A DNA stretch of 64,000 nucleotides from IMG/VR virus record IMGVR_UViG_3300032431_000004, positions 1 to 64,000 of that record; one strand, 5' to 3'. The notes under the pieces are model-generated. The model was not told the origin of the DNA, searched no databases, and saw only the letters and a list, made by a program, of their open reading frames with translations. Made by a program: the position numbers and the translations under genes. Below are positions 22,872 through 57,847 of this stretch, piece after piece (positions within the stretch are counted from its first letter, which is position 1; each line of letters opens with the position of its first letter). The DNA comes from a virus.

Positions 22872-23194
22872 TCGCTACAGATAGGTTAGGGGAGCGCGAT
22901 CGCCCCTAGCAAAGCCCCCAAAAGCGATCGCATGTAGAGAATAACCGAAATCGTAGAGAGCGGCGAAAAATGGGCGATAGGATGGCGATAGCGATCGCAT
23001 GTACGCGTTTGTAACCATTACTAGGCAACGGTTACAGCAGTCAAACAGCTTCCTGAGTACGCGTTACTAGAACCTGTTGCAAGGTCAAACACCTTGCAAG
23101 TAGAGAGCCTTTAGAATCGCTAGAATCCCTTGTAGCTCAACGCTTGCCCCTTGCAACCTAGAGAGAACAGGGCAGCCAGAAGGCAGGTAAAAAC
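22872..23194. other. intergenic region with hairpins and short direct repeats
   Basis: No gene found. Holds TGTAACC...GGTTACA (23010-23036), a perfect TTGCAAGGT-caaac-ACCTTGCAA hairpin (23077-23099) and GTACGCGTT twice (about 23001 and 23058). The region is upstream of a leftward tail operon and next to palindromic repeats; replication or regulation signals are possible. Confidence 0.3.
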
Positions 23195-23312
23195 AGGCAG
23201 TGTCATGTTGACTGTCATACTTTTGGCAACACATTCTAAGCCTTGCTGAGCATGAGTTAGAAGCCTGCCGTCGCAGCGTCACTGACATCTAGTAGTTTTA
23301 GGTTTGCTGCCA
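23195..23312 (+). repeat. palindromic element, partial copy A (left arm only)
   Basis: Starts AAACAGGCAGTGTCATGTTG and continues through the conserved GCCGTCGCA block to the TAGTTTTAGGTTTGCTGCCA point, then stops matching. The right arm is missing. Same family as copies B-G. Confidence 0.7.
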
Positions 23313-23355
23313 AAGACTTAAGATGGCAGCGATCGCCCATGTTAGGAAAAAAGGA

Positions 23356-23487
23356 ATGCTTGCAGGCTTCTGGTTTTGCTTCAATAGCTATCTAGACTGG
23401 CATCGGTTAATGGTTCAGGCGTACAACCAGTCGTTTAATCAGTTCAAATTTTTCAGATGCTTAGGGCAAACCGAATGGTTGACTTGA
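23356..23487 (+). CDS. small aromatic-rich peptide
   Basis: 43 residues, MLAGFWFCFNSYLDWHRLM..., very rich in Phe, Trp and Tyr. AGGA lies ten bases upstream and an intrinsic terminator follows at 23540. Possibly a real small gene isolated between repeat copies; composition is odd, so it may be chance. Confidence 0.35.
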   Translation: MLAGFWFCFNSYLDWHRLMVQAYNQSFNQFKFFRCLGQTEWLT

Positions 23488-23539
23488 GGCAGCAATCGGC
23501 AGGCAGCGCTGCGCGATCGCCCATAGCTTCATTTTCTTT

Positions 23540-23560
23540 AGCCGCCTGATTTGGGCGGCT
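23540..23560 (+). terminator. intrinsic terminator
   Basis: AGCCGCC-tgatttg-GGCGGCT followed by TTCCTTT. Points rightward and would end a transcript of the small gene at 23356. Confidence 0.6.
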
Positions 23561-23593
23561 TTCCTTTGGGCGATCGCGTTTTTCGCTAAAAGT

Positions 23594-23882
23594 AGGCAGT
23601 GTCATGTTGACTGTCATACTTTTGGCAACATACTCTAACCCATACTCAGTAAAGCTTAGACACCTGCCGTCGCACTGTCATTGGCATTAAGAGTTTTAGA
23701 TTCTGAGATTAGGATTATCTCTAAGAAGATTAGATATTTAATTCAGTGAATTAATAACTCTGAATCCTCTCCTATTTTGAAATCAGAAAAATCAATGACA
23801 GTGCGACGGCAGGCATCTAAGCCATATATACCAAGGCTTTAAGTGTGTTGCCAATTTGTTGACTGTCACGTAGACACTGCCT
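23594..23882 (+). repeat. palindromic element, complete copy B
   Basis: 289 bp from AGGCAGTGTC to GACACTGCCT. The first and last 90 bases are imperfect reverse complements, including TTGGCAACA/TGTTGCCAA and CCTGCCGTCGCACTGTCATT/AATGACAGTGCGACGGCAGG. The centre holds TTAATTC-agt-GAATTAA. No reading frame of note. Confidence 0.85.
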
Positions 23883-23890
23883 GTTTTTTT

Positions 23891-24078
23891 GGGGATTCTA
23901 GCAGCTGAGACTACCCCTAAAAAGACTCAGGTATTTAATCCAATAGATTGAATACCTGAGTCTTCCCTTATTTTGAAATCGTAAAAGTCAATGACGCTGC
24001 GACGGGAGGTGTCTAACCCATACTCAGCAATACTTTAACCCTGTTGCCAAAACAATGACAGTCACGTAGACACTGCCT
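23891..24078 (+). repeat. palindromic element, partial copy C (left end missing)
   Basis: Begins inside the element and ends with the normal GACACTGCCTGTTTT terminus. Its central hairpin GACTCAGGTATTTAATC-caata-GATTGAATACCTGAGTC (23924-23962) keeps pairing while differing in sequence from copy D. It directly follows copy B. Confidence 0.8.
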
Positions 24079-24104
24079 GTTTTCCCAGAATGCCACCGGC
24101 TAAA

Positions 24105-28888: not shown

Positions 28889-28993
28889 CGTTTTTGCCTT
28901 TTGCTGCTTACTTTTATAGTATGTCACAAAAAGAGTGGGAATAGTGGGAAGTTTCATATTGACTGCGTGAAGATGTGCGATCGCGCTTAAAAG

Positions 28994-29283
28994 AGGCAGT
29001 GTCAACATGACTGTCATACTTTTGGCAACACACTCTAAGACTTACTGAGTATGGGCTAGACACCTGCCGTCGCACTGTCATTGGCATTAAGAGTTTTAGG
29101 TTTACTGCCAGAGTTCCCACTAAAAAGATTCAGGCATTTAATCTCAGCAGATTAAATGCCTGAATCTTCTCCTATTCTGAAATCACAAAAGTATGTGACG
29201 CTGTGACAGCAGCCTTCTAAGGTATACGTATCAGGGCTTTAGGTATGTTGCCAAAACAATGACAGTCATGTTGACACAACGCT
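28994..29283 (+). repeat. palindromic element, complete copy D
   Basis: About 290 bp. Left end AGGCAGTGTCAACATGACTG; right end has drifted (GACACAACGCTTTT instead of GACACTGCCTGTTTT). The central hairpin is a perfect 18-bp stem (29127-29144 with 29149-29166) over a CAGC loop. It ends only seven bases from the stop of the next gene. Confidence 0.85.
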
Positions 29284-29289
29284 TTTATC

Positions 29290-30117
29290 CTACCGAGATC
29301 CGGTCAAGCTCCACTGGTGCCGTTGTGCGCCAGTTCCCCTGCGCTCTACCTTGCCTTCCCGTTGCAAAACTTTCAGAACCCTGTAGACATAGGTGTGTGA
29401 AAGTTTTACCTCACCTACGATTTTGTCAGACTGGGACTGTCCTGAGCTGAGAGCGTTCAGCACTTTTCGCTTTGCATCTTCTCCTACGTAGCCAGATTCT
29501 CCAATCGTTCTGGACTTCTTGACTGGCGAAGCGCTACTTGCCGATCGCATTCCCTGCGTTGGCTGAGCCACTGCCTGAGCCAGCATGAGCTTGGCCTTCT
29601 CAAGATCAATCTCTGCCAGTCTGACGTCCAGTTCCTTCAGTCTGACCTGATTGTCAACCAATGGCGGCTGAGGACTGGCTGTGGGCATCCACCCGGTCTT
29701 TGAATGAATAAGAGTTCGCAAACCAACCCCGCTGCTCAGTAAGAGCGATCGCTTTGCTTCCTTGGTTTGATCCTTTGGAGCGGCAAAGCAGGCGTAGTAG
29801 CTAATCATCGCTGAGCAGAAAACGTCAGGCAAGATTTCTGACCCATAAGGATCGGAGCTGTTTACTACTGGCAAAGCAATACCAGCAAAGCTTTTTAGGC
29901 ATTCTGGGAGGTCGTTGCTTATCGGGTCAGAAGATCGGATCTTTTGCACCCAGTAGCTAATCGAAGGCTGAGATTTACCTACAAAACGACCTAGGCCACG
30001 ATGGCTCATACCAGAACGACCGCTCAGCCGCTCGGTATAGTATTCAATCCCATCTTCCACAAACTTGATGAAATCGCCGCTCTCAGGTGCATTAAGCAAT
30101 TGGATTTGTGCAGACAT
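29290..30117 (-). CDS. regulator-like protein with N- and C-terminal helix-turn-helix regions
   Basis: 275 residues from ATG 30115-30117; earlier starts overlap the divergent gene and the operator. N-terminal third: SHRGLGRFVGKSQPSISYWV, a helix-turn-helix. Middle: FCSAMISYYACFA and a GLRTLIHSKTGWMP segment that is shared with the protein at 45350-46120. C-terminus: DKIVGEVKLSHTYVYRVLKV, a winged-helix pattern. Likely a phage transcription regulator of a cyanobacterial family. Divergent from an RHH gene across an inverted repeat. Confidence 0.65.
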   Translation of the reverse strand: MSAQIQLLNAPESGDFIKFVEDGIEYYTERLSGRSGMSHRGLGRFVGKSQPSISYWVQKIRSSDPISNDLPECLKSFAGIALPVVNSSDPYGSEILPDVFCSAMISYYACFAAPKDQTKEAKRSLLLSSGVGLRTLIHSKTGWMPTASPQPPLVDNQVRLKELDVRLAEIDLEKAKLMLAQAVAQPTQGMRSASSASPVKKSRTIGESGYVGEDAKRKVLNALSSGQSQSDKIVGEVKLSHTYVYRVLKVLQREGKVERRGTGAQRHQWSLTGSR

Positions 30118-30136
30118 AGCTAAAACTTGGTAAGTG

Positions 30137-30154
30137 ATGCTACTATCATAGCAT
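30137..30154. promoter_or_regulatory. operator candidate, perfect 6-bp inverted repeat
   Basis: ATGCTA-ctatca-TAGCAT between the divergent HTH and RHH genes. CTATCATAGCAT here resembles CTATGATAGCAT at 249-260 next to the other RHH gene. Confidence 0.45.
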
Positions 30155-30178
30155 GAAGTATTTACTTTGAGGTTACTC

Positions 30179-30319
30179 ATGACTACCAAAAAGCACGCGA
30201 TCGCAGCCTATCTAGACGAAAAGGAAGTTGAGTTCTTATGTGCGATCGCATTGGAGTGGGGATGCAGCATGTCTGCCGCCATCAAAAGGCTAATTAGAGA
30301 GAAGGCGAAGGAGGGTTGA
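30179..30319 (+). CDS. small ribbon-helix-helix protein
   Basis: 46 residues (MTTKKHAIAAYLDEKEVEFL...), with TGAGGT upstream. A strand (HAIAAYL) then two helices with MSAAIKRLIREKAKEG fits RHH DNA-binding proteins. It diverges from the HTH gene and shares its operator region. Ends just before partial repeat E. Confidence 0.6.
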   Translation: MTTKKHAIAAYLDEKEVEFLCAIALEWGCSMSAAIKRLIREKAKEG

Positions 30320-30340: not shown

Positions 30341-30449
30341 ATTTCAAAATCACAAAAGTCTGTGACGCTGTGACAACACAACTCTAGTGTATACATACCA
30401 ATACTTTAGGTGTGTTGCCAAACTAATGACAGTCATGTTGACACTGCCT
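30341..30449 (+). repeat. palindromic element, partial copy E (right arm only)
   Basis: Matches the right third of the family from ATTTCAAAATCAC to GACACTGCCTGTTTTT. Left arm and centre are absent. An intrinsic terminator follows 12 bases later. Confidence 0.75.
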
Positions 30450-30460
30450 GTTTTTCACCT

Positions 30461-30500
30461 AAAAACCCCCTCAGAGAAACTGTTCTCTGAGGGGGTTTTT
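30461..30500. terminator. very strong bidirectional intrinsic terminator
   Basis: AAAAACCCCCTCAGAGAA, loop ACTG, TTCTCTGAGGGGGTTTTT: 18 perfect base pairs with flanking A and T runs. It separates the rightward RHH gene from the leftward gene at 30517, stopping transcripts from both. Confidence 0.9.
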
Positions 30501-38679: not shown

Positions 38680-39419
38680 TGGCATTACTTTATGGGATTG
38701 GATCTTTCGACTTTCTCACTCTTGGCCTTACGCCAGAACGCTTGCTACCAGTTGAGCCGATGGAGTTTACGTTGGCGGGTGAAAGCACTAGCAAAACCTC
38801 CACTAAATTCAAAGATGGCATCTTGGTAACTGCGGGAACGGCTCAGGCTGGAGAGACTTTTACTCTGACGATTGGGATTGAGGCGGTGAACTGGCTATCG
38901 TTGCAATTTGCTTATGGTGAACTTGCAGGCACTACCGCTAGCATCGCACTGCCAACCCTCAAGTATGCTACGATTCCCGCCCTAACCCCGTTTGAGATTA
39001 TTGATACGGATCTGACGTCCTTGATTGTTTACGCAACGAACTTGGCAAGTGGAATCCCACTGACTCGTGTTGTTGGAGTACCTGCGGCGTCAGGAGAATT
39101 CCAAGTAGTGACGGGCACAACTAGATTAATCTTCCACTCTTCTGACGCTGGAAAAGCGATCGCGTATCGTACGTTCAAAGCGTATACGAATGTTTCAACC
39201 ATCGGGGTTGAGGCAGTTGCTACAACCCTGTCAAATTTCCAATTCAGCGGAGTTTGCTACAACGACGAAGAAAAATACGAGCTGGTCATCCCCAGAATGG
39301 GGAAAACGAACATCCCTTCGCTGGGCATTTCTGATGTTACGAAATTGGACGTTGAATTCCAGCTGGCGCTAACGGGTTCTAACCGTAAAGTATTCCAGCT
39401 GATCAAGCTACCTGCCTAA
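38679..39419 (+). CDS. major tail (tube) protein
   Basis: 246 residues, almost all beta: MEFTLAGESTSKTSTKFKDG, ILVTAGTAQAGETFTLTIGI, and YELVIPRMGKTNIPSLGIS. Typical of siphovirus tail tube subunits and placed between the tail terminator and the chaperone. No sheath gene accompanies it. Confidence 0.7.
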   Translation: MALLYGIGSFDFLTLGLTPERLLPVEPMEFTLAGESTSKTSTKFKDGILVTAGTAQAGETFTLTIGIEAVNWLSLQFAYGELAGTTASIALPTLKYATIPALTPFEIIDTDLTSLIVYATNLASGIPLTRVVGVPAASGEFQVVTGTTRLIFHSSDAGKAIAYRTFKAYTNVSTIGVEAVATTLSNFQFSGVCYNDEEKYELVIPRMGKTNIPSLGISDVTKLDVEFQLALTGSNRKVFQLIKLPA

Positions 39420-40060
39420 TGTATCTGGAATTCTCGCCACGAGCTGAGTTTGTAGATCGACTTGGCATTACCCGTCGCGTTGCCCTGTGTTCCCTCATAG
39501 GGCAACAAGAGTTCTTTGAGCGCATCACTGAAATAGCCAGCCTGTTAGGTGATGCTGATGCTGGCGAAAGCTGGCAGGAGCTATATGCGAAAAGCGATCG
39601 CTTTCAATTTCTGTCTAAACGATGCCTTGAGCTAAATGGCATCGATCCTGAATGGCTAACTCTAAACGACCTAGAACCCCTACTAATTGGTCAGGGGGAT
39701 GAGCCGGGGTGGCTAGTAACGCTCAACACCCCTAAGCCTGCCGAAGGCAAGGAGAGGGGGCAAAAGGATAGTGCATCACTAGCTGAGATTGTGGCCGCGA
39801 TTGGTTCAATGACTGGCTCAATTGAAGAGGGTTTGAGGCTGGTAGCGACATTGCCAGCCCCGGTGCTATTGGAGATTCTAGAGGCACGGGTAGACCAAAC
39901 GCGATCGCCAGAAGAGAAACAAAAGGCAGACTTTAAGAAACGCAAGCCCGACCTCCTGAAGGCGCTGAAGGAAGTTCAGGAGCGCCACAAAGCTGAATAT
40001 CTAGCAGGAATGAACGATGGTAGCCAACACGACAGCGGTGATCCGGCTCAGCCTCAATAG
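39419..40060 (+). CDS. tail assembly chaperone
   Basis: 213 residues, charged and helical with a terminal KKRKPDLLKALKEVQERHKA. It occupies the place between tube and tape measure where gpG/gpGT-type chaperones are found. It overlaps the tape measure start by 44 nt. No separate T-type second frame was seen. Confidence 0.6.
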   Translation: MYLEFSPRAEFVDRLGITRRVALCSLIGQQEFFERITEIASLLGDADAGESWQELYAKSDRFQFLSKRCLELNGIDPEWLTLNDLEPLLIGQGDEPGWLVTLNTPKPAEGKERGQKDSASLAEIVAAIGSMTGSIEEGLRLVATLPAPVLLEILEARVDQTRSPEEKQKADFKKRKPDLLKALKEVQERHKAEYLAGMNDGSQHDSGDPAQPQ

Positions 40061-43000
40061 CGATGCTGTCGATCGTGATGCAAAGGCATTAGCGGAGAGC
40101 CTGAAACGGACGCTTGGCAGTATCAAAATAAACAGTAAGCTAATCGATCTGGGCAATGCACCGGATGAGATTACGCGGCTAACTGCCAGCATTAAACAGC
40201 TTCAGTCAGCATCGGCAGATCCAAAGGCAGCTGCTCAGCTTCAAAAAGAAGCGCAGATCTTGCAAGAGCAGCTGCGCTATAAAAAAGAACTGGCTGCCAT
40301 TGAGGGGGCGGGTTTTGGGACTGAAGATGCTGCAAATGCGCGGGCACTGGCGGCTGAACTTAGTAAGTTAAACCTCCAAAAGATTGCCTCTGACTTTGAC
40401 AAGCTAGGGAACGCAGCGGCTACGGCGGCGGCAAAGGCGAAGGCGATTGAAAACAGTAGCCAGAATACATCTGCGCTGGCGACATCGCTAAACCGTAGCT
40501 TCACAGCAGCTCAGCAGTTTGCAGGCGGGTTAGGGCTGACAGCTCAGAAGGCCAATGAAGCGATCGCCAAACTGAGGGAATTGGATACGGTTGGCGCTAC
40601 CAATGCCCAAAAATTTGCGGTATTGAACAAAGAGCTTGGCATCACGCAACAGCAATTTGGATCACTCAATAGTGCAGCACTGCAAACCAGGGAAGGGTTG
40701 ACGGCAGTTGCAGGTGGTGCGGCTGCGATCGCGGCTGGCATTGCCGGGGTATTCGTTAAAGGCACTCAAGAATTTTTAGCATTTGACAATGCAATCCGTC
40801 AGTCTGGCGTCATTAGTGGGAGTCTAGGGACACCTCAGTTTGAAGCGCTAAGGGCAGAAGTTGAGCGGTTAGGGATCGCAACGACAAAGACCCCGGCTCA
40901 AATTGCTGAAATGAGTATCAGCCTTAGCCGCGCTGGCTTCACTGCTGAAGAAACGTCTGTGGCGCTTGCGGGGATTGTTCAAGCTTCAGAAGCTACCGGG
41001 GAGAACCTTGAGGTCGTTGGCGATATTATTTCAAGGACAGTACGGACGTTTAGCAAAGATATTGGGGAAACGCAAGATGTAGCCGACTTGCTAGTTCAAA
41101 CGGCTAACTCTACAAATACCTCTGTCCGGAGTCTAGGGGAATCCCTCTCCTATGTGGGAACTTCTGCGGCAACCAGCAACCAGCCGTTAGACGATACGTT
41201 AATTCTTTTGGGTCTGCTAGGGGATGTTGGACTAACCGGAAGTGCAGCCGGAACAACACTTGCAGAAACGATAGAAAGGCTTAAAATTGCTAGCGCCGGT
41301 GCGGAAACTGAGTTCAGCGGATTGGTGCGAGGAAGCGCAAAGGCGTCGCAGGCTTTTAACGTTATTGGAGCTTCAGCACGAAATACAGACGGCAGCATGA
41401 AGTCGGTGCTTGAAATCTTGCCTGAGATAAAAGCTAATTTAGCTGGCTTATCTCAGGTTGATCGGGATGTTGTCACAAAAGCGTTATTTGGGACTCAAGG
41501 GGCTAGAACTGTCAATGCGTTTCTTGCAGCCACTCCTGAACGCATCGCGGCTGTAACAGAAGAAGTCAAGAACTACAGCGGGGCATCCGCTAACGCCAGC
41601 GAAGAACTAAGACAGGGACTAGGAGGGGCAATCAATCTATTTACAGGCTCCCTCAGTGCAGCGGCTACAGAAGCGGGGCAATTTGTAGCAGTAGGTTTAG
41701 AGCCTGTAGTCAGGGCGGCAACTGGACTTCTAAATACGTTCCTTGGACTGCCAGCGCCCATCCAAGGATTTATCCTTGCCACTACCGCGCTGACAGGCGC
41801 GATCGCCGCTGCTGTTGCGGTTATTGCCACCTATCAGCTGCTAAATATCCAGCTATTAGCAGTGCAGGCCGCAGAAACCTTAGCGATGATTGCAACTACA
41901 ATTGCTACGAAAGGGGCGACGGCGGCGCAGCTGCTTTTTAATACTCAGATATCAATCACGCAGGCTAGGTTGATTGCTACTAGGGCAGCTTTGGCTGTAG
42001 GAGCGATCGCAAAATTAGCTTTTGCGGCAGCAACCGGTGGAGCTGCTGGGGCAATGGGAGCCTTTGCCGCTTCACTTGCTGCTGTAGCGCCTTTACTGAT
42101 CGTGATAGCGGCTGGCATTGCTGGCATTAAGTTTGCTCAGTATGCCAATGAATTAAGAGAAGCTAACGACGCGATCGCCCAATCGTCAACATCAGTAGAA
42201 TCTGCCAGCACAGAAGCATTCGCCGCAGCAAATCGCACTAAGGCAGCTACCGACAAATTAAATGAAGCAAGGTTGTCGGGGCAATCGGTTACCCAAAGCG
42301 AACTGGACGACGCAAAGAAGCTGACTGAAGCCAATGACGCCAGACTAAAGGGACTGCAGGAACAGCTTAAGCAGGTTGAAGCGATCTCCGTAGCCGGTGG
42401 GAGTGACGAGCAAAAAGCCAGTCAAGACGCGCTGACACAAACCATTAAAACTAGTATTGGGGCGCTTGAAGGGCAAAACAAAAAGCTAAAAGAATCGATC
42501 GGGTTAAGGGAAGGAGTTACTGATAGCATCGAAAGCCTGTCAGCAGGGTATGACGAACAACTTTCTGAACTTGAAAGGTTCAATCAGCAGAGAGAGCTTA
42601 GCGCTACCGAAGCCTTAGCCGCTGGCAATATCACAGAAGAGAAAGCCCGCGCTGACAACCTTATTGCTGAGCAGAATTATTTATCGCAGCGGATCGCGCT
42701 AAACGAATCAAAGCTTGCTGAGTTAGAAGCTGCTAGAGGCTCCGCAACTGACGCAGAATCACTCAAAAAAGCAGGTGAAGAAATTGTAAAAGTTGAAGCA
42801 ACTATCGCGGGCGATCGCCTGAAGGTTGCTCAAAACTCATTGGCGGAAAGGCGGCGGCTGCAAGAGGAAGAGGTGAAGGAATTGGCGATCGCTGAAACCG
42901 AAGCTCAAACAGCGATCGCAACCGCACGAGCGTCTGGCAGCATCACCGATGGAGAAGCTAACATTCGTAGGCTAGCGGCAACACGCGATCGCATTGCTGG

Positions 43001-44630
43001 TGAGCTAGCCCTTGAAATAAAAGGCTCGGCAGATAAACAAAAGATTGCTCAACTTGAATTGCAATTAGTTGAGAACGCAGCGGCACAACAAGAGGCTGTT
43101 GAGGCTGAATCCCTGAACCGCATTGCCAAAGCGACCCAGGAAGCTAACCGGCAGATTGAAGCATCGCAGAACGAACGGATTGCAGCCGTCAAGCAAGCTC
43201 AATTAGATGGCGTTGCTACTGAGGAGGAAGCTGCTAGGCAGATTGCTGACATCCAACGCAGCGGCACCGGGGAAAAGGTACAGGCAGTTGAGGATGAACT
43301 AGCAGCCCTAAGGGCGGCGCGGGCGGCGGGTACTGTTGATACTGAAACCGGAGCTGAAAAGGAAGCTGAGTTGATTCAGCAACTAGGCCAGCTCAGCCTA
43401 CAGCGATTAGATGACGAACTGGCTGCCAGAAAGGCTGTGCAGGAAGAGGCGATCGCAGCCATCCAACGGGAACTAGCCGCAAGCGATCGCGCTGCTGGAC
43501 GCAAGATAGCAGGGCTAGAGCGGCAGGTAGCGGCGCAACAGCAGGTAGAGGCATCGTTACAGCGTCAGTCTGATTTACTGTCGTCTCAGGCCAGCCTATC
43601 GCAAGCACTGAGCAATCTAGACCAGGTGCGATCGCAATCCTCAGTTGATAGATTCAGCCGTGCGCTTGAAATCCAGCAACGGCTCAATAGTGGAGAAGTA
43701 GAATCGGCACAGGTACAGCGGGCATTGCAGCAAGAACTATCGGGGCTAGGGGTTAGCCGTGGAGCAAGTGAGCTGAGCATTATTCGCCAGCGTCAAGCTG
43801 AAGAGGATCGGCTTGCTGCAATCCAACGGGTTGCCCTTTCTGCTAGACAGACTCAGGAACGGGCATCACTTGAGCTTGAAACTAGACGCAATCAGCTGGT
43901 ATCGCAACGTGCGGTTGTGGAGTCGCAGATCGCTGAAATTCAGGCACGGCAGAATCAAAATACTGCACAGGCATCGTTAAGGGAAGCACAGGTAACAGGC
44001 AATGCTGACCAGATAGCGGCGGCACAAGCTGATGTCGAATTAGCGCAGCAGTCTACCGACCTAGCAGGTCAATCACGGCTGATTGCTCAAGAGAATGCTA
44101 CAGCACAAGCCGCGATCGCTACCAATGCCAATGCTGCCTTACTCGCTCAACAAGCGGCTGAGTTGGTGCAAACTAGGGCAGCTGAGCAAGCAAGGCAATA
44201 TGCTCAAGCATTGGCAGCGGCAGAGGCAAGTAGCGCAGGTATCGCTAGGAATCTAAGCGGCGGCACACCACAGGCACGGCGCGATGGTGGTGGCGTGAAA
44301 GCTGGCGCTCCTTACTTGGTTGGGGAAGCTGGCCCTGAGCTGATTACCCCTAGGCGTAGCGGATGGGTGTGGACGGCGCAACAAACTGCTGAAATGCTAA
44401 AGGCAAGTGTACCCAAAAGTTTTACAGGCGGGGTAGCGATCGCGCCTGCGTCTAACCCAACATTGCCACTGCTCAAAGAAATTAGAGGGCTGCGAGCTGA
44501 CCTAAAAGCGTTAGATCGCCCACAACAAAACAATAACTTCACATTGGTAAACGAAGAAGACCCGTACGACAAAGTGGTCAAGACCGCCAGTGCATTGCTG
44601 AGGGGGCGGATTCAGAGCTTGGGGTTGTGA
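40017..44630 (+). CDS. tape measure protein
   Basis: 1537 residues. Long helical protein; residues about 220-520 resemble the PhageMin_Tail/TP901 core (LAFDNAIRQSGVISGSLG, VGDIISRTVRTFSKDIGET, QPLDDTLILLGLLGDVGLTG). Several hydrophobic stretches at about 560-710 (LVVIAAGIAGIK-like) may insert in membrane during injection. A long Gln/Ala/Glu-rich coiled coil follows. C-terminal RDGGGVKAGAPYLVGEAGPE near 1422 is the usual tape-measure ending. By the usual 1.5 angstrom per residue the tail would be roughly 230 nm. Confidence 0.9.
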   Translation: MVANTTAVIRLSLNSDAVDRDAKALAESLKRTLGSIKINSKLIDLGNAPDEITRLTASIKQLQSASADPKAAAQLQKEAQILQEQLRYKKELAAIEGAGFGTEDAANARALAAELSKLNLQKIASDFDKLGNAAATAAAKAKAIENSSQNTSALATSLNRSFTAAQQFAGGLGLTAQKANEAIAKLRELDTVGATNAQKFAVLNKELGITQQQFGSLNSAALQTREGLTAVAGGAAAIAAGIAGVFVKGTQEFLAFDNAIRQSGVISGSLGTPQFEALRAEVERLGIATTKTPAQIAEMSISLSRAGFTAEETSVALAGIVQASEATGENLEVVGDIISRTVRTFSKDIGETQDVADLLVQTANSTNTSVRSLGESLSYVGTSAATSNQPLDDTLILLGLLGDVGLTGSAAGTTLAETIERLKIASAGAETEFSGLVRGSAKASQAFNVIGASARNTDGSMKSVLEILPEIKANLAGLSQVDRDVVTKALFGTQGARTVNAFLAATPERIAAVTEEVKNYSGASANASEELRQGLGGAINLFTGSLSAAATEAGQFVAVGLEPVVRAATGLLNTFLGLPAPIQGFILATTALTGAIAAAVAVIATYQLLNIQLLAVQAAETLAMIATTIATKGATAAQLLFNTQISITQARLIATRAALAVGAIAKLAFAAATGGAAGAMGAFAASLAAVAPLLIVIAAGIAGIKFAQYANELREANDAIAQSSTSVESASTEAFAAANRTKAATDKLNEARLSGQSVTQSELDDAKKLTEANDARLKGLQEQLKQVEAISVAGGSDEQKASQDALTQTIKTSIGALEGQNKKLKESIGLREGVTDSIESLSAGYDEQLSELERFNQQRELSATEALAAGNITEEKARADNLIAEQNYLSQRIALNESKLAELEAARGSATDAESLKKAGEEIVKVEATIAGDRLKVAQNSLAERRRLQEEEVKELAIAETEAQTAIATARASGSITDGEANIRRLAATRDRIAGELALEIKGSADKQKIAQLELQLVENAAAQQEAVEAESLNRIAKATQEANRQIEASQNERIAAVKQAQLDGVATEEEAARQIADIQRSGTGEKVQAVEDELAALRAARAAGTVDTETGAEKEAELIQQLGQLSLQRLDDELAARKAVQEEAIAAIQRELAASDRAAGRKIAGLERQVAAQQQVEASLQRQSDLLSSQASLSQALSNLDQVRSQSSVDRFSRALEIQQRLNSGEVESAQVQRALQQELSGLGVSRGASELSIIRQRQAEEDRLAAIQRVALSARQTQERASLELETRRNQLVSQRAVVESQIAEIQARQNQNTAQASLREAQVTGNADQIAAAQADVELAQQSTDLAGQSRLIAQENATAQAAIATNANAALLAQQAAELVQTRAAEQARQYAQALAAAEASSAGIARNLSGGTPQARRDGGGVKAGAPYLVGEAGPELITPRRSGWVWTAQQTAEMLKASVPKSFTGGVAIAPASNPTLPLLKEIRGLRADLKALDRPQQNNNFTLVNEEDPYDKVVKTASALLRGRIQSLGL

Positions 44631-45349: not shown

Positions 45350-46120
45350 TCAGGTCAGATCCATTTCCATCTGCCAGCCATCACCATAGAATTCATTGCA
45401 CAATGCCCTGAAATTATCCTTTGACCCTCTAGACAGCCCCATGAAGGTGTCTAGCCTGACCACGTGGGGAGCAAGCCTATCACGGATCTCTTCTGGTAGG
45501 AATTGGTGAATCTTGTGCCTGCGAATCCCATTCTGAGGAGGGTTTAGCTGGTTGATTTTTGCCTTTTCTTCAGCCGTCATCCAACTGTAGACAAACTTCC
45601 AATAGCCACTGCCGCCAAACCAGCCAAAAAACGGACGGCAAAATTTAGGATCAAAGAAGATCTCCCACGGCGCGGCTTCATCCAAGATGCGATCGATTGA
45701 CCGATGCGATTCTGGGGCTGATATGTACCGCTCTGGTAACCATCCCGTCTGAGTTTGGATGTAGGAGGTCAAGCCAATGTTGACAGTCGCAGGCAGAACG
45801 TCTTGAGCCTTTTCCCTTCCCTCAAACGCATAGTGTTGGATGACTGCCGCGCAAAAGTCTGACGGCCAAGCGCTGATTTTCCCACCATTCTTTGCGAACT
45901 TGGTACGCAGGTCTAAAGCTTTGCCTGTAAACGGTTCTAGAGATCTAGATACCTTTTTGGTACGCAGCGATTCTAGGAGTTTTCGGATGCTCCCTTCACT
46001 AACTCCACAGGCTCTAGCTATACCCCGCTGGCTCATGAAGGAAGCCCCGGTAGCTACAACCGTAAAATACTCAACACCATTGATTTCTGATTTCAAAAAC
46101 TCTAAGCTTGTTACAGCCAT
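45350..46120 (-). CDS. P63C-domain-like phage regulator
   Basis: 256 residues; TAGAGGTAGACCG before the ATG. N-terminus SQRGIARACGVSEGSIRKLL is a helix-turn-helix. The middle FCAAVIQHYAFEG and GLTSYIQTQTGWLPERY match the protein at 29290. The C-terminus (PWEIFFDPKFCRPFFGWFGG, then KIHQFLPEEIRDRLAPHVVR) resembles the P63C domain of phage proteins. Leftward gene embedded in the rightward tail region, bounded by terminators, so it is an independently controlled unit (a moron-like gene). Confidence 0.65.
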   Translation of the reverse strand: MAVTSLEFLKSEINGVEYFTVVATGASFMSQRGIARACGVSEGSIRKLLESLRTKKVSRSLEPFTGKALDLRTKFAKNGGKISAWPSDFCAAVIQHYAFEGREKAQDVLPATVNIGLTSYIQTQTGWLPERYISAPESHRSIDRILDEAAPWEIFFDPKFCRPFFGWFGGSGYWKFVYSWMTAEEKAKINQLNPPQNGIRRHKIHQFLPEEIRDRLAPHVVRLDTFMGLSRGSKDNFRALCNEFYGDGWQMEMDLT

Positions 46121-46237: not shown

Positions 46238-46266
46238 TACTTTAAAGCCAATTACCCTCTAAAAAC

Positions 46267-46556
46267 AGGCAGTGTCTACATGACAGTCAACAAATTGGCA
46301 ACACACTTAAAGCCTTGGTATATATAGGTTAGATGCCTGCCGTCGCACCGTCACAGACTTTTCTGATTTCAAAATAGAACAGGATTTAGAGTTATTAATT
46401 CAGTAAAATAAATATCTAATCCTCTTAGAGGTAATCCTTGGCAGCAAACCTAAAACTACTAGATGCCAGTGACGCTGCGACGGGAGGCATCAAGCCTGTG
46501 CTGAGTATGGGTTTAACCCTGTTGCCAAATCCATGACAGTCAACATGACACTGCCC
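46267..46556 (-). repeat. palindromic element, complete copy F (inverted orientation)
   Basis: 290 bp, from AAAACAGGCAGTGTCTACAT to ATGACACTGCC. Its left arm equals the right arm of copy B read backwards (GTCAACAAATTGGCAACACA, CCTTGGTATATATA), so the element is inverted relative to B and D. It separates the divergent P63C-like and tail genes. Confidence 0.85.
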
Positions 46557-46571
46557 CCTTTTAGCCAAAAT

Positions 46572-46600
46572 GCGATCTGCAAACAGCGCTTCGCGATCGC
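46572..46600 (+). repeat. HIP1-type short interspersed repeat, copy 3
   Basis: GCGATCTGCAAACAGCGCTT then CGCGATCGC; immediately after palindromic element F and before a tail gene. Confidence 0.6.
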
Positions 46601-46652: not shown

Positions 46653-47159
46653 ATGGCACGCTGGCAAGTCAGGATTAGGCAACCCGCATCGGCCACCCCG
46701 GTCATCCCTGAACTGGTGTTGGACACTTTTGGGGAAGATGGCTATAACCGATCGCAGATTCAGCAGGTGAACCTCAGAGACTTCACGGTTGGCGGATCAG
46801 CCATCATCAGCGGTGCCACGTATCCCTATCGCTACACATGGGCGATCGCGTGTCAGGTTTCAGAAGATGACGCGCTGCAATTGGAGGCGCTGGTAATTTG
46901 GCAAGACAAGCGATATGCCGCAGGGTTAGACGGGCGACTGAGGTTGATAGATGAGGTAGAGCTTTTGCCACCAGAAGCCGCGCCACATTCCAAAACGCTC
47001 ATTGCTCCTGAAACGAATTCCTATGGGTTTCTCCGTGGGTTTGGCAGCTTCAATGTGAAAATAAGCCTACCTGATAGCCACAAGACTCATGTGGGGAGAA
47101 GTGCTGAGGATGGCCTACCAGTGAAGCTGCTTCAGTTCAGTGCGGTAGAGTTGCCCTGA
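46653..47159 (+). CDS. tail protein (distal-tail region)
   Basis: 168 residues, GAGGCAAC before the ATG. Beta protein beginning MARWQVRIRQPASATPVIPE, with a basic N-terminus. Lies after the tape measure, where distal tail proteins are found; no clear family. Confidence 0.5.
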   Translation: MARWQVRIRQPASATPVIPELVLDTFGEDGYNRSQIQQVNLRDFTVGGSAIISGATYPYRYTWAIACQVSEDDALQLEALVIWQDKRYAAGLDGRLRLIDEVELLPPEAAPHSKTLIAPETNSYGFLRGFGSFNVKISLPDSHKTHVGRSAEDGLPVKLLQFSAVELP

Positions 47160-47199
47160 TGGGCTATTGTGAATAGGAATTTAATGAGGTTTTCTATAT

Positions 47200-47826
47200 A
47201 TGCTGAGTAGTCCTGAAAATATTCAAACGACTGAGGAATGGATCGCTCAACTCTCAGAGGCTACCGGGAAGAGCTTTGAGATAGTGGGAGATATTCTCTT
47301 AAGGACGATGCGGACGTTTTACAAAGAAATTGGAGAAACCTATTTACTAGCTGATCAGCTAGTTGCGGTGATCAGCTCAACCAATACCTCAATCTTAGGA
47401 TTGGGTGAGTCCTTAGCTTTCGTAGGGCCGATTGCTGCCCTTATGAACCAGCCACTAGATGACGTTCTAATCCTGCTAGGTCTGCTGGGAGATGCTGGCA
47501 TTGAGGGGAGTATGGCGGGCATAGGCTTGATGGCTGTCTTAAATCGACTTCAAGTTACGTCGGCAGCGGCAGAACCAGAATCCATTAAGAGAACTTTTGA
47601 TATCGTCAGCGCTTCTGCCAAGAATAGCGACGGATCAATGAGATCCGTTTTAGAAATACTTCCAGAGCTTCGGGGAAGCATTGGCAAGCTATGGCAAGCT
47701 GAGCAAGGCATTTTGATGGAGGCATTGTTTGGGGTAGAAGGCGCACCAGTTTTTCAGGCATTGTTCAATACAACTCCAGAACATGTCGCGATCGTTACCA
47801 GTCGAGTCAAGAGCGCTGGCAGGTAG
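47200..47826 (+). CDS. stand-alone tape-measure fragment protein 1
   Basis: 208 residues that align along their length with tape-measure residues of about 320-520: shared GDI(I/L)xRTxRTFxKxIGET, SSTNTS..GLGESL, QPLDD.LILLGLLGD and DGSM(K/R)SVLEILPE. Divergence is large (about half the residues), and the frame is intact with its own start and a GAGG site, so it is not a fresh pseudogene. It may be a retained domain duplicate with an assembly or superinfection role. Confidence 0.6.
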   Translation: MLSSPENIQTTEEWIAQLSEATGKSFEIVGDILLRTMRTFYKEIGETYLLADQLVAVISSTNTSILGLGESLAFVGPIAALMNQPLDDVLILLGLLGDAGIEGSMAGIGLMAVLNRLQVTSAAAEPESIKRTFDIVSASAKNSDGSMRSVLEILPELRGSIGKLWQAEQGILMEALFGVEGAPVFQALFNTTPEHVAIVTSRVKSAGR

Positions 47827-47893
47827 CCGCACCTGAACACCGAAGGAGAGTAGTGGGTTATTCTGAATGGAAATTTAACGAGGTTTCTTACGT

Positions 47894-48289
47894 ATGCTGA
47901 GCAGTTCTGGAGAGAATTTAGACGCCGCTGAAATGGTCGTTGCCAGTCAGATCAGGATAGTAGATGAGCTACAGCAAAAAGCGATCGCAGATCCGCTGAA
48001 TATTAATATTGCCACAGCTTTGAGCGCCCATTCTGCTACGCTCTCTTCGCTGTGGAGCATGATTTTTGTTAGGGGGGAGGAACTGGCGATGGAGCTGAGT
48101 AATGAGGGTTATCCCTTGGCAGAAGCCCCGAGACTAAATGGCGAGGTTCTACAATCACGGAGCGATGGCGGTTCAATACCTGCGGACTTCCCTCTCAGGC
48201 TAGGAGAGTCTGGCCCCGAGTTATTCTATCCTTGGGAGCGCTTATCTACTGGTGAAATTGGCATTGTCAAAAATATTTCATGGGGCTAA
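47894..48289 (+). CDS. stand-alone tape-measure fragment protein 2
   Basis: 131 residues. N-terminal helix; the C-terminal 50 residues (RSDGGSIPADFPLRLGESGP then ELFYPWERLSTGE) match the tape-measure ending near residue 1420-1445. It shares its start (MLSSxxEN) and about 45 bases of upstream leader with fragment protein 1, so both come from a common expression cassette. Confidence 0.6.
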   Translation: MLSSSGENLDAAEMVVASQIRIVDELQQKAIADPLNINIATALSAHSATLSSLWSMIFVRGEELAMELSNEGYPLAEAPRLNGEVLQSRSDGGSIPADFPLRLGESGPELFYPWERLSTGEIGIVKNISWG

Positions 48290-48293
48290 ACCG

Positions 48294-48533
48294 ATGGGTA
48301 TCGAAAACACAAGCAAGCCGACAGGTGAAAACGATCGCATTTGGAGAGGCCACATCGTTAGCCTAGGCAAGGAATATCAGCGCTGTGAGTCTTCAGGCGC
48401 AAGGGATATTTGGTATTGGCGGTTCGTTTTAGACGTTGCCACTTGGGCACTTGACCAATGCAATAAGCGATTGAGCGCACCGGTACTCAGAACATGGCAT
48501 TATCAAAAAGAATTGAAACGCGATCGCACATGA
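48294..48533 (+). CDS. small hypothetical protein
   Basis: 79 residues from ATG 48294: MGIENTSKPTGENDRIWRGH, later YQRCESSGARDIWYWRFVLD. The first bases CGATGGGTATCGAA match 44694-44707 in the terminator after the tape measure, suggesting that both places once held a copy of this gene start. Overlaps the exonuclease gene by 4 nt. Confidence 0.5.
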   Translation: MGIENTSKPTGENDRIWRGHIVSLGKEYQRCESSGARDIWYWRFVLDVATWALDQCNKRLSAPVLRTWHYQKELKRDRT

Positions 48534-49069
48534 AATATTTTCTTGACACCGAATTTATTGAAGACGGCACCACTATTGACTTGATCAGCATTGGTCTGGT
48601 GTGTGAGGACGGGCGGGAATTCTACGCCGAAAACTCTAGCGCCGACCTTTCAAAGGCTGGGGAATGGGTGGAAGCGAATGTGTTGCCGTTGCTTTGGTCT
48701 AGAAGCGCAGACAAGGAAAAAGCAAGCCTGTGGAGCCGTGATGGCGTGGCTGGCGGATTGCTGACCCACAAAGAGATAGGCTCGGCAATTCGGCTGTTCA
48801 TACCGGAAGATGACAAGCCTGAGTTTTGGGCTTATTACGCAGACTATGACTGGGTAGCCTTTTGCCAGCTATTCGGAACAATGATGGATTTGCCAGATGG
48901 ATTTCCTATGTACTGTCGCGATATCAAGCAATGGTGCGACCAGCTTGGCAGCCCTGATCTGCCTAAGCAGGATGGGACAGAACACAATGCTCTTGAGGAT
49001 GCCCAGTGGACATTAGAGGCTTGGGAATTCTTGAACGCAATTGACCTAACCCCTAATGTCACTCCTTAA
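48530..49069 (+). CDS. 3'-5' exoribonuclease-like protein (DEDD fold, Rv2179c group)
   Basis: 179 residues from the ATGA overlap. MKYFLDTEFIEDGTTIDLIS gives Asp6 and Glu8, WAYYADYDWVAFCQL a second acidic site, and EHNALEDAQWTLEAW the His-x-x-x-x-Asp end; together the DEDDh nuclease pattern of the Rv2179c-like family. It is embedded in the tail module, unusual for a nuclease. Substrate (RNA or DNA) cannot be told. Confidence 0.75.
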   Translation: MKYFLDTEFIEDGTTIDLISIGLVCEDGREFYAENSSADLSKAGEWVEANVLPLLWSRSADKEKASLWSRDGVAGGLLTHKEIGSAIRLFIPEDDKPEFWAYYADYDWVAFCQLFGTMMDLPDGFPMYCRDIKQWCDQLGSPDLPKQDGTEHNALEDAQWTLEAWEFLNAIDLTPNVTP

Positions 49070-56806: not shown

Positions 56807-57553
56807 ATGGCAACACTCCACATCATAAAGTCAACCTGGTTAAAACAGGCCGCTGTTCAGTCATCAGGGCTGTCAGACGGCAATAAATACGCCGCTAGCG
56901 CAGGTCAGACCTTTGAGCTGGCCAGCTTTGAGTCAATTGAGGATCTGTCAAAAAATGATGGGGACAGCCATGTCAAAATTTTCTTAGCTGAGCCAGTTAA
57001 AGAAAAAAGGACATGGTATGTTTTCCAGCGTGACGTTGCCATCATGGATGGCGATCGCGTTTTGTTCCCGTCGCCTGAAGACGATGAACGTACCGCCAAC
57101 CGTAAGCTGGCGATCGCGCATGACTATTCAGGAATTGTCTTGTGGCTACCCGGTGGGCGAAAGGTTCACTCTGACGAGCCGATTATTAAGTCTGGCAATT
57201 TCTCATGGGGTGAAGCTAGCCACGGCGGCGAGCGCATCCCTAAAGACAAGCAGACGGTAGAACGTATAGTCAAGCTGGCGATCGCGCTTCAGGACGCTAG
57301 GGCGGCTATCGGTAGACCGTTCCGAATTACCTCATGGTATAGACCAGAGCCGTTCAACTCACGGGTGGGCGGGGCATCGCGATCGCAGCATCTAAATGGC
57401 GGTGCCGTAGACATTGTGGTTGAGGGCTACAGTGGCGCTCAACTGGCAAGGAAGATCAAACCATTCTGGCCTGGTGGCGTTGGGATCTATCCCGGTAACC
57501 GTAAACATATTCTGCACTTGGATATCGGAACTAAACGATCTTGGGGAGTCTAA
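56807..57553 (+). CDS. endolysin, M15_3-type D-Ala-D-Ala carboxypeptidase
   Basis: 248 residues. N-terminal 120 residues are a possible wall-binding domain; the C-terminal peptidase has FRITSWYRPEPFNSRVGGAS, SQHLNGGAVDI with His195 and Asp202, and HLDI with His237, the zinc ligands of the M15 family. It would cut peptidoglycan cross-bridges at lysis. Palindromic element G begins right after the stop. Confidence 0.85.
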   Translation: MATLHIIKSTWLKQAAVQSSGLSDGNKYAASAGQTFELASFESIEDLSKNDGDSHVKIFLAEPVKEKRTWYVFQRDVAIMDGDRVLFPSPEDDERTANRKLAIAHDYSGIVLWLPGGRKVHSDEPIIKSGNFSWGEASHGGERIPKDKQTVERIVKLAIALQDARAAIGRPFRITSWYRPEPFNSRVGGASRSQHLNGGAVDIVVEGYSGAQLARKIKPFWPGGVGIYPGNRKHILHLDIGTKRSWGV

Positions 57554-57557
57554 AAAC

Positions 57558-57847
57558 AGGCAGTGTCTACGTGACTGACATGCTTTTGGCAACACACTTA
57601 AAGCCTTGGTATATATGGACTAGACACCTGCCGTCGCACTGTCATTGGTTTTTCTGATTTCAAAATAGGAGAGGATTCAGACTTATTAATTCACTGAATT
57701 AAATATTCAGATCTCTTAAGGGTGATCCTAGGCAGCAAACCTAAAACTACTAGATGCCAATGACGGTGCGACGACAGGTGTCTAACGCATACTCAGTACA
57801 GGTTTGAGTATGTTGCCAAAAGTATGTCAGTCAACATGACACTGCAC
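57558..57847 (-). repeat. palindromic element, complete copy G (inverted orientation)
   Basis: About 290 bp, AAAACAGGCAGTGTCTACGT to ATGACACTGCAC. Orientation as copy F. It fills the whole gap between the endolysin stop and the next gene, so it lies in the transcript or acts at its end. Confidence 0.85.

Follow-up and report, generated by a model that had tools for sequence, protein, structure and literature searches.

Two fragments, probably of a second and divergent tape measure protein, downstream of the tape measure gene of a phage

Two short ORFs located downstream of an intact tape measure protein (TMP) gene were identified in a 64,000-nucleotide stretch of viral DNA (positions 1 to 64,000 of IMG/VR record IMGVR_UViG_3300032431_000004, hereafter the window), which makes up most of a 74.8-kb viral record. 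An origin of both ORFs from a second, divergent TMP is well supported by sequence comparison. Fragment A (208 residues, 47200..47826, + strand) shows homology to the central part of the TP901-type TMP core, and fragment B (131 residues, 47894..48289, +) resembles the TMP in its C-terminal third only. The explanation favoured here, with confidence a little short of even, is that the fragments are the remnant of, or were taken from, a second divergent TMP gene and that their most likely activity would be as competitors for TMP partners. The presence in the record of 193 copies of GCGATCGC (approximately 1 expected) points to a cyanobacterial host for the phage.

Fragments A and B and the full-length tape measure protein

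The full-length TMP (40017..44630, +) is an intact protein of 1537 residues with a PF10145 match at residues 280-492 and a match to PHROG 1533. Fragment A was found to share 51% identity over 200 residues with TMP residues 320-519 (blastp, E 2e-50), encoded at 40974..41573 (+). It was also matched by PF10145 (7.7e-23, 81.8 bits against a cut-off of 33.2) and TIGR01760 (1.4e-19, 70.3 bits against a cut-off of 28.8). These matches cover positions 37-201 of the 201 of PF10145, the first 36 being missing, and 77-260 of the 349 of TIGR01760, so fragment A holds less than the full core region. The extent and content of fragment A given by the first-pass annotation were thereby borne out.

The claim that both ORFs are highly diverged pieces of the TMP held for fragment A and for residues 87-131 of fragment B, and was not borne out for residues 1-86. 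Taken whole, fragment B matches the TMP only weakly (29%, E 1e-7 with no correction for composition). Residues 87-131 (48152..48286, +) carry the C-terminal motif DGG...GExGPEL and match TMP residues 1418-1460 (44268..44396, +) with a local alignment score of 77, which was reached by none of 300 shuffles. Comparison of residues 1-86 with four TMPs gave similarity not above chance (shuffle p 0.2-0.8), while their codon use is coding-like. No Pfam, PHROG or NCBIfam model matched fragment B. The TMP region of the C-terminal motif is also weakly matched by the TMPs of other phages. The motif itself is present in the TMP of this phage and absent from those of the related loci L004, L029, L030 and L036, which have C-termini of a different type.

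With approximately 190 TMP-like residues in fragment A and 45 in fragment B, the two fall short of a near-full-length TMP of the satellite type, and they are without the long helical or coiled-coil ruler with hydrophobic segments. AlphaFold modelling of fragment A alone gave ten helices (pLDDT 86, pTM 0.84), and the TMP core was modelled as a helical array (pLDDT 78). In these models the N-terminus of fragment A falls on the opening residues of a helix of the TMP, capped by SPE, and its C-terminus on the end of the confident domain, the first helices of the domain being missing. TMP relatives were included in the alignment behind the model of fragment A, so that the model shows fragment A to be compatible with folding into a compact helical piece of that core, not that it does fold. 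A fold search of BFVD with fragment A returned 104 matches with E values of at most 0.001. The top-ranking named matches are TMPs or minor tail proteins, and the best 50 viral matches all have a length of 436 residues or more. A structure search of the PDB gave no significant match.

At the 3' end of fragment A (47815..47853, +), the TAG stop codon resembles the outcome of a 1-nt deletion relative to the TMP of L003 (GGGTCAGCC to AGGT-AGCC), one missing base being what creates it. Weak similarity to the L003 TMP runs on beyond this stop (genomic-control p 0.0025 for the whole stretch and 0.04 for the post-stop part alone). This suggests that fragment A was truncated by a frameshift, after much of its divergence had taken place.

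Start regions and coding signature

Both fragments were expected to have starts of their own, and the evidence for this proved stronger than had been stated, as their start regions (47159..47218 for fragment A and 47853..47913 for fragment B, both +) are near-copies of each other. These twin leaders of approximately 60 nt consist of the 41 nt 5' of each ATG and the first codons, and contain a GAGG ribosome-binding site followed at equal spacing by ATGCTGAG. The pair scored 68, against 33 for the runner-up among 1,830 pairs from 61 genes. The best alignment of the copies places a 1-nt indel after approximately codon 5, which shifts the homologous DNA out of the frame of fragment A, so that the part kept would be the initiation region and not a common N-terminal peptide. 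The pattern was not found elsewhere in the window, nor did an exact-match search of 2.9 million viral contigs find it, and the leader and first codons of fragment A showed no homology to TMP DNA.

An RNA or intron as the explanation for the leader was rejected, with folding no better than that of shuffled sequences and no Rfam match at gathering score (a single sub-threshold match at chance level lies near 45.2 kb on the opposite strand). Around the fragments, promoter-like sites did not rise above the chance level, and expression would therefore be late, with the tail genes.

That both frames are open was confirmed, and their codon scores (0.119 for A and 0.108 for B) are close to the coding median of 0.115-0.116, the off-frame 99% limit being at most 0.03. 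The disrupted frames and lost coding signature of a pseudogene were thus not observed, apart from the frameshift-like stop at the end of fragment A. In the noncoding part of the twin leaders, 10 of 41 sites differ (24%). Under neutral drift since the leaders split, both frames would have stayed open with p ~0.012, counting substitutions only and no indels; this estimate assumes a leader duplication not older than the truncation of the gene, and the argument fails otherwise.

Genomic location and related phages

Upstream of the fragments lies a gene for a 168-residue protein (46653..47159, +), a probable homologue (31% aligned identity) of the 161-residue gene product encoded after the TMP in L004, and found at the same position in L004, L029 and L030. 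Between this gene and a tail gene, the stretch 47160..49055 (+) holds fragments A and B, a 93-residue ORF and an RNase H/exonuclease gene (PF16473, PHROG 2259). As the TMP, the 161-residue gene and the tail gene are contiguous in L004, L029 and L030, with nothing inserted between the same two genes, this stretch is read as an accessory insertion of this phage, or else as a stretch lost from its relatives. In record G008 the 161-residue gene adjoins the TMP. The TMP and 161-residue gene of L031 and L036 (record G008) are in reversed orientation, and the chaperone-position gene and the tail gene, their neighbours elsewhere, are approximately 15 kb or more away, possibly through inversion, translocation or an assembly artefact.

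A proposed search for the same fragments beside the TMPs of relatives gave a negative outcome, with exactly one PF10145 match per record, and hence no second copy, in eight of eight related viral records checked. L003 is the closest relative; its record ends inside the TMP, which leaves the downstream region outside the comparison. Scans of viral contigs with fragment A and with fragment B singly gave no relative, and none was confirmed in two scans covering bacterial and archaeal genomes. Using tblastn, the TMP was matched in 542 records of a phage collection and fragment A in 150, at one place each; at that sensitivity no second TMP copy was seen among the phages listed, the same being true of plasmids, and fragment B had no match in the phage collection.

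A 94-residue ORF located before the TMP in L003 (8860-9144) is 77% identical to TMP residues 20-94. Since it repeats the TMP N-terminus, partial TMP duplications do arise in this lineage.

Evolution of fragment A

In both amino-acid and codon trees, fragment A was placed outside the group formed by the TMPs of this phage, L003 and L004 (the last with 71% identity in the domain). This was the best codon topology by 3.7 log-likelihood units, with bootstrap values of 69-75. Measured from the same node, the branch of fragment A is 0.53 in length, against approximately 0.28-0.30 for the TMPs of this phage and L004, making it approximately 1.8 times faster. Changes at the 72 sites fixed in other TMPs numbered 22 in fragment A and 20 in L005, and of these 7 and 1, respectively, were radical.

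A dN/dS comparison with TMP homologues had been suggested as a check; synonymous sites were saturated in pairwise comparison, and branch models were used for this reason. Purifying selection was detected on the whole branch of fragment A, with an omega of 0.08 for six sequences (omega=1 rejected, p=0.0013) and 0.10 for eight (omega=1 rejected, p=0.014), neither different from the TMP background of 0.05. These values average in the time that the ancestor spent inside a full TMP, and for this reason a low omega does not prove maintenance as a fragment. The earlier conclusion, drawn from divergence and open frames, that the two ORFs are therefore old and maintained goes beyond these data. Better arguments for maintenance than omega are offered by the diverged twin leaders with both frames open and by the fold-compatible ends predicted for fragment A.

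Gene conversion between fragment A and a TMP was considered and gave no clear signal: at 70 nucleotide sites differing between this phage and L003, fragment A agrees with L003 at 27 and with this phage at 20. The TMP counterpart of fragment A lies inside the stretch of greatest difference between the TMP of this phage and that of L003, with codons 301-550 (40917-41666) holding 22 of the 43 amino-acid differences among 1,050 codons compared. An excess of this kind is the pattern expected of an interaction target and may serve as a lead.

Origin and possible activity of the fragments

According to the favoured explanation, a second TMP gene would have diverged shortly before the separation of the L004 TMP from that of this phage, and pieces of it would now lie in the accessory insertion within the late tail operon. 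The duplicated translation start would allow fragments A and B to be translated as separate small proteins, with A retaining the fold of a compact, helical part of the core. These proteins could then compete with the full-length TMP for the tail assembly chaperone, the tube and the tip, which late in infection would have a decoy or dominant-negative effect. The next most probable explanation, itself quite plausible, is that of a decaying relic, in which deletions and a frameshift have reduced a laterally acquired or duplicated TMP gene to two short, functionless frames that have not yet gained stops. The order of A and then B is colinear with the TMP, and the partial duplication in L003 provides a precedent. 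Decay is further favoured, and maintenance opposed, by the possible frameshift stop of fragment A with similarity continuing beyond it, the truncation of its Pfam domain with loss of the first helices, its accelerated branch and radical changes, and the occurrence of both fragments only in this phage among those checked, with no orthologue in any related record. The favoured explanation is also opposed by the differing frames in which homologous DNA is translated into the N-terminal peptides of A and B. Against a relic stand two open frames with fully normal codon use, each preceded by a near-identical ribosome-binding site and start, and the low drift probability given above, obtained before indels are considered. 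Sequence alone leaves the choice between a present function, as a decoy or competitor in tail assembly, and a relic about evenly balanced.

Roles in tail length, chaperoning or interference, as originally proposed, are conjecture. A tail-length regulator or TMP chaperone in the phage's own assembly is improbable: the homology of A to the TMP core, the position of both fragments on the same strand and in the same operon region as the tail genes, and the late expression expected would suit such a role, but L004, L029, L030 and G008 (TMPs of 1412-1466 residues) encode nothing of the kind at the equivalent position, and the usual chaperone slot upstream of the TMP (39419-40060) is already taken, judging by position. 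About as improbable, by analogy with known blockers, is that the fragments are free copies of the TMP regions that these target (around residues 314-387 as for Rta and ICP1, and the C-terminus as for Tab), absorbing a blocker from a host, prophage or satellite so that the phage's own TMP can assemble. A second, split TMP whose exons, A and B, are united by RNA splicing, on the pattern of the interrupted ICP1 phage TMP (PMC10448857), is highly improbable. Introns with homing endonucleases are known to interrupt TMP genes (PMC10448857) and the fragments are colinear, but no intron family was matched in the window, each piece has a separate start, the N-terminal 300 and approximately 800 central residues are absent, and an intact TMP is present.

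Comparison with known systems

Fragment A shares homology with the middle of the TP901-type TMP core (PF10145, TIGR01760) and its predicted helical fold, but differs from such TMPs in its length (208 residues against approximately 1,000-1,500) and in being without the N-terminus, the hydrophobic segments and the coiled-coil ruler. PLE and cf-PICI satellites offer another parallel, in that a second TMP-type protein could compete with the phage TMP, PLE satellites making a TMP of their own (PMC12987554). As given there, the PLE11 TMP differs from that of ICP1 by only 95 residues in length, is found in virions and is accompanied by a chaperone and a hub protein; the present case differs in consisting of fragments only, carried by the phage itself. 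A stand-alone TMP core of 369 residues with its own stop was observed in L013 (6328-7437), a record of 7.5 kb that also holds a TerS-like ORF and encodes a D5-type primase. It suggests that satellite-like elements, too, can carry free TMP cores, a pattern nearer to satellite TMPs than the fragments described here; the L013 record may itself be a fragment.

Tab (PMC10884400), Tai (PMC11364771) and Rta (PMC12987554) are likewise small proteins acting on tail assembly, but are not described as TMP pieces in the accessible text of these papers. Tab acts via the TMP C-terminus (PMC10884400), Tai blocks tail assembly (PMC11364771), and Rta acts via residues 314-387 of the ICP1 TMP and is without a recognised characterised homologue (PMC12987554). 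PADLOC models gave no match to fragments A and B; the library used dates from 2023 and predates the publication of Tab, Tai and Rta. Tail-assembly blockers and satellite-encoded TMPs have been discovered only recently. Loose TMP domains beside a phage's own TMP would be a simple means to poison rivals or absorb blockers; if the fragments are relics only, a phage can hold, and then lose, a second divergent TMP.

Repeats and BstA-like genes in the window

A family of diverged palindromic repeats, approximately 73-90% alike and present in both orientations, was identified at 23188-24083, 28974-29277, 30341-30500, 46258-46577 and 57549-57845, with no Rfam match. Two BstA/HTH-like proteins are encoded at 45350-46120 (-) and 29290-30189 (-), with matches to PADLOC model PDLC01151 (2e-33 and 2e-19) and to BstA (2.6e-14 and 3e-5), respectively. 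A homologue is located directly before the tail gene in L031. Each of the two genes adjoins a copy of a self-complementary repeat of approximately 300 bp, and gene and repeat together look like a repeated mobile unit.
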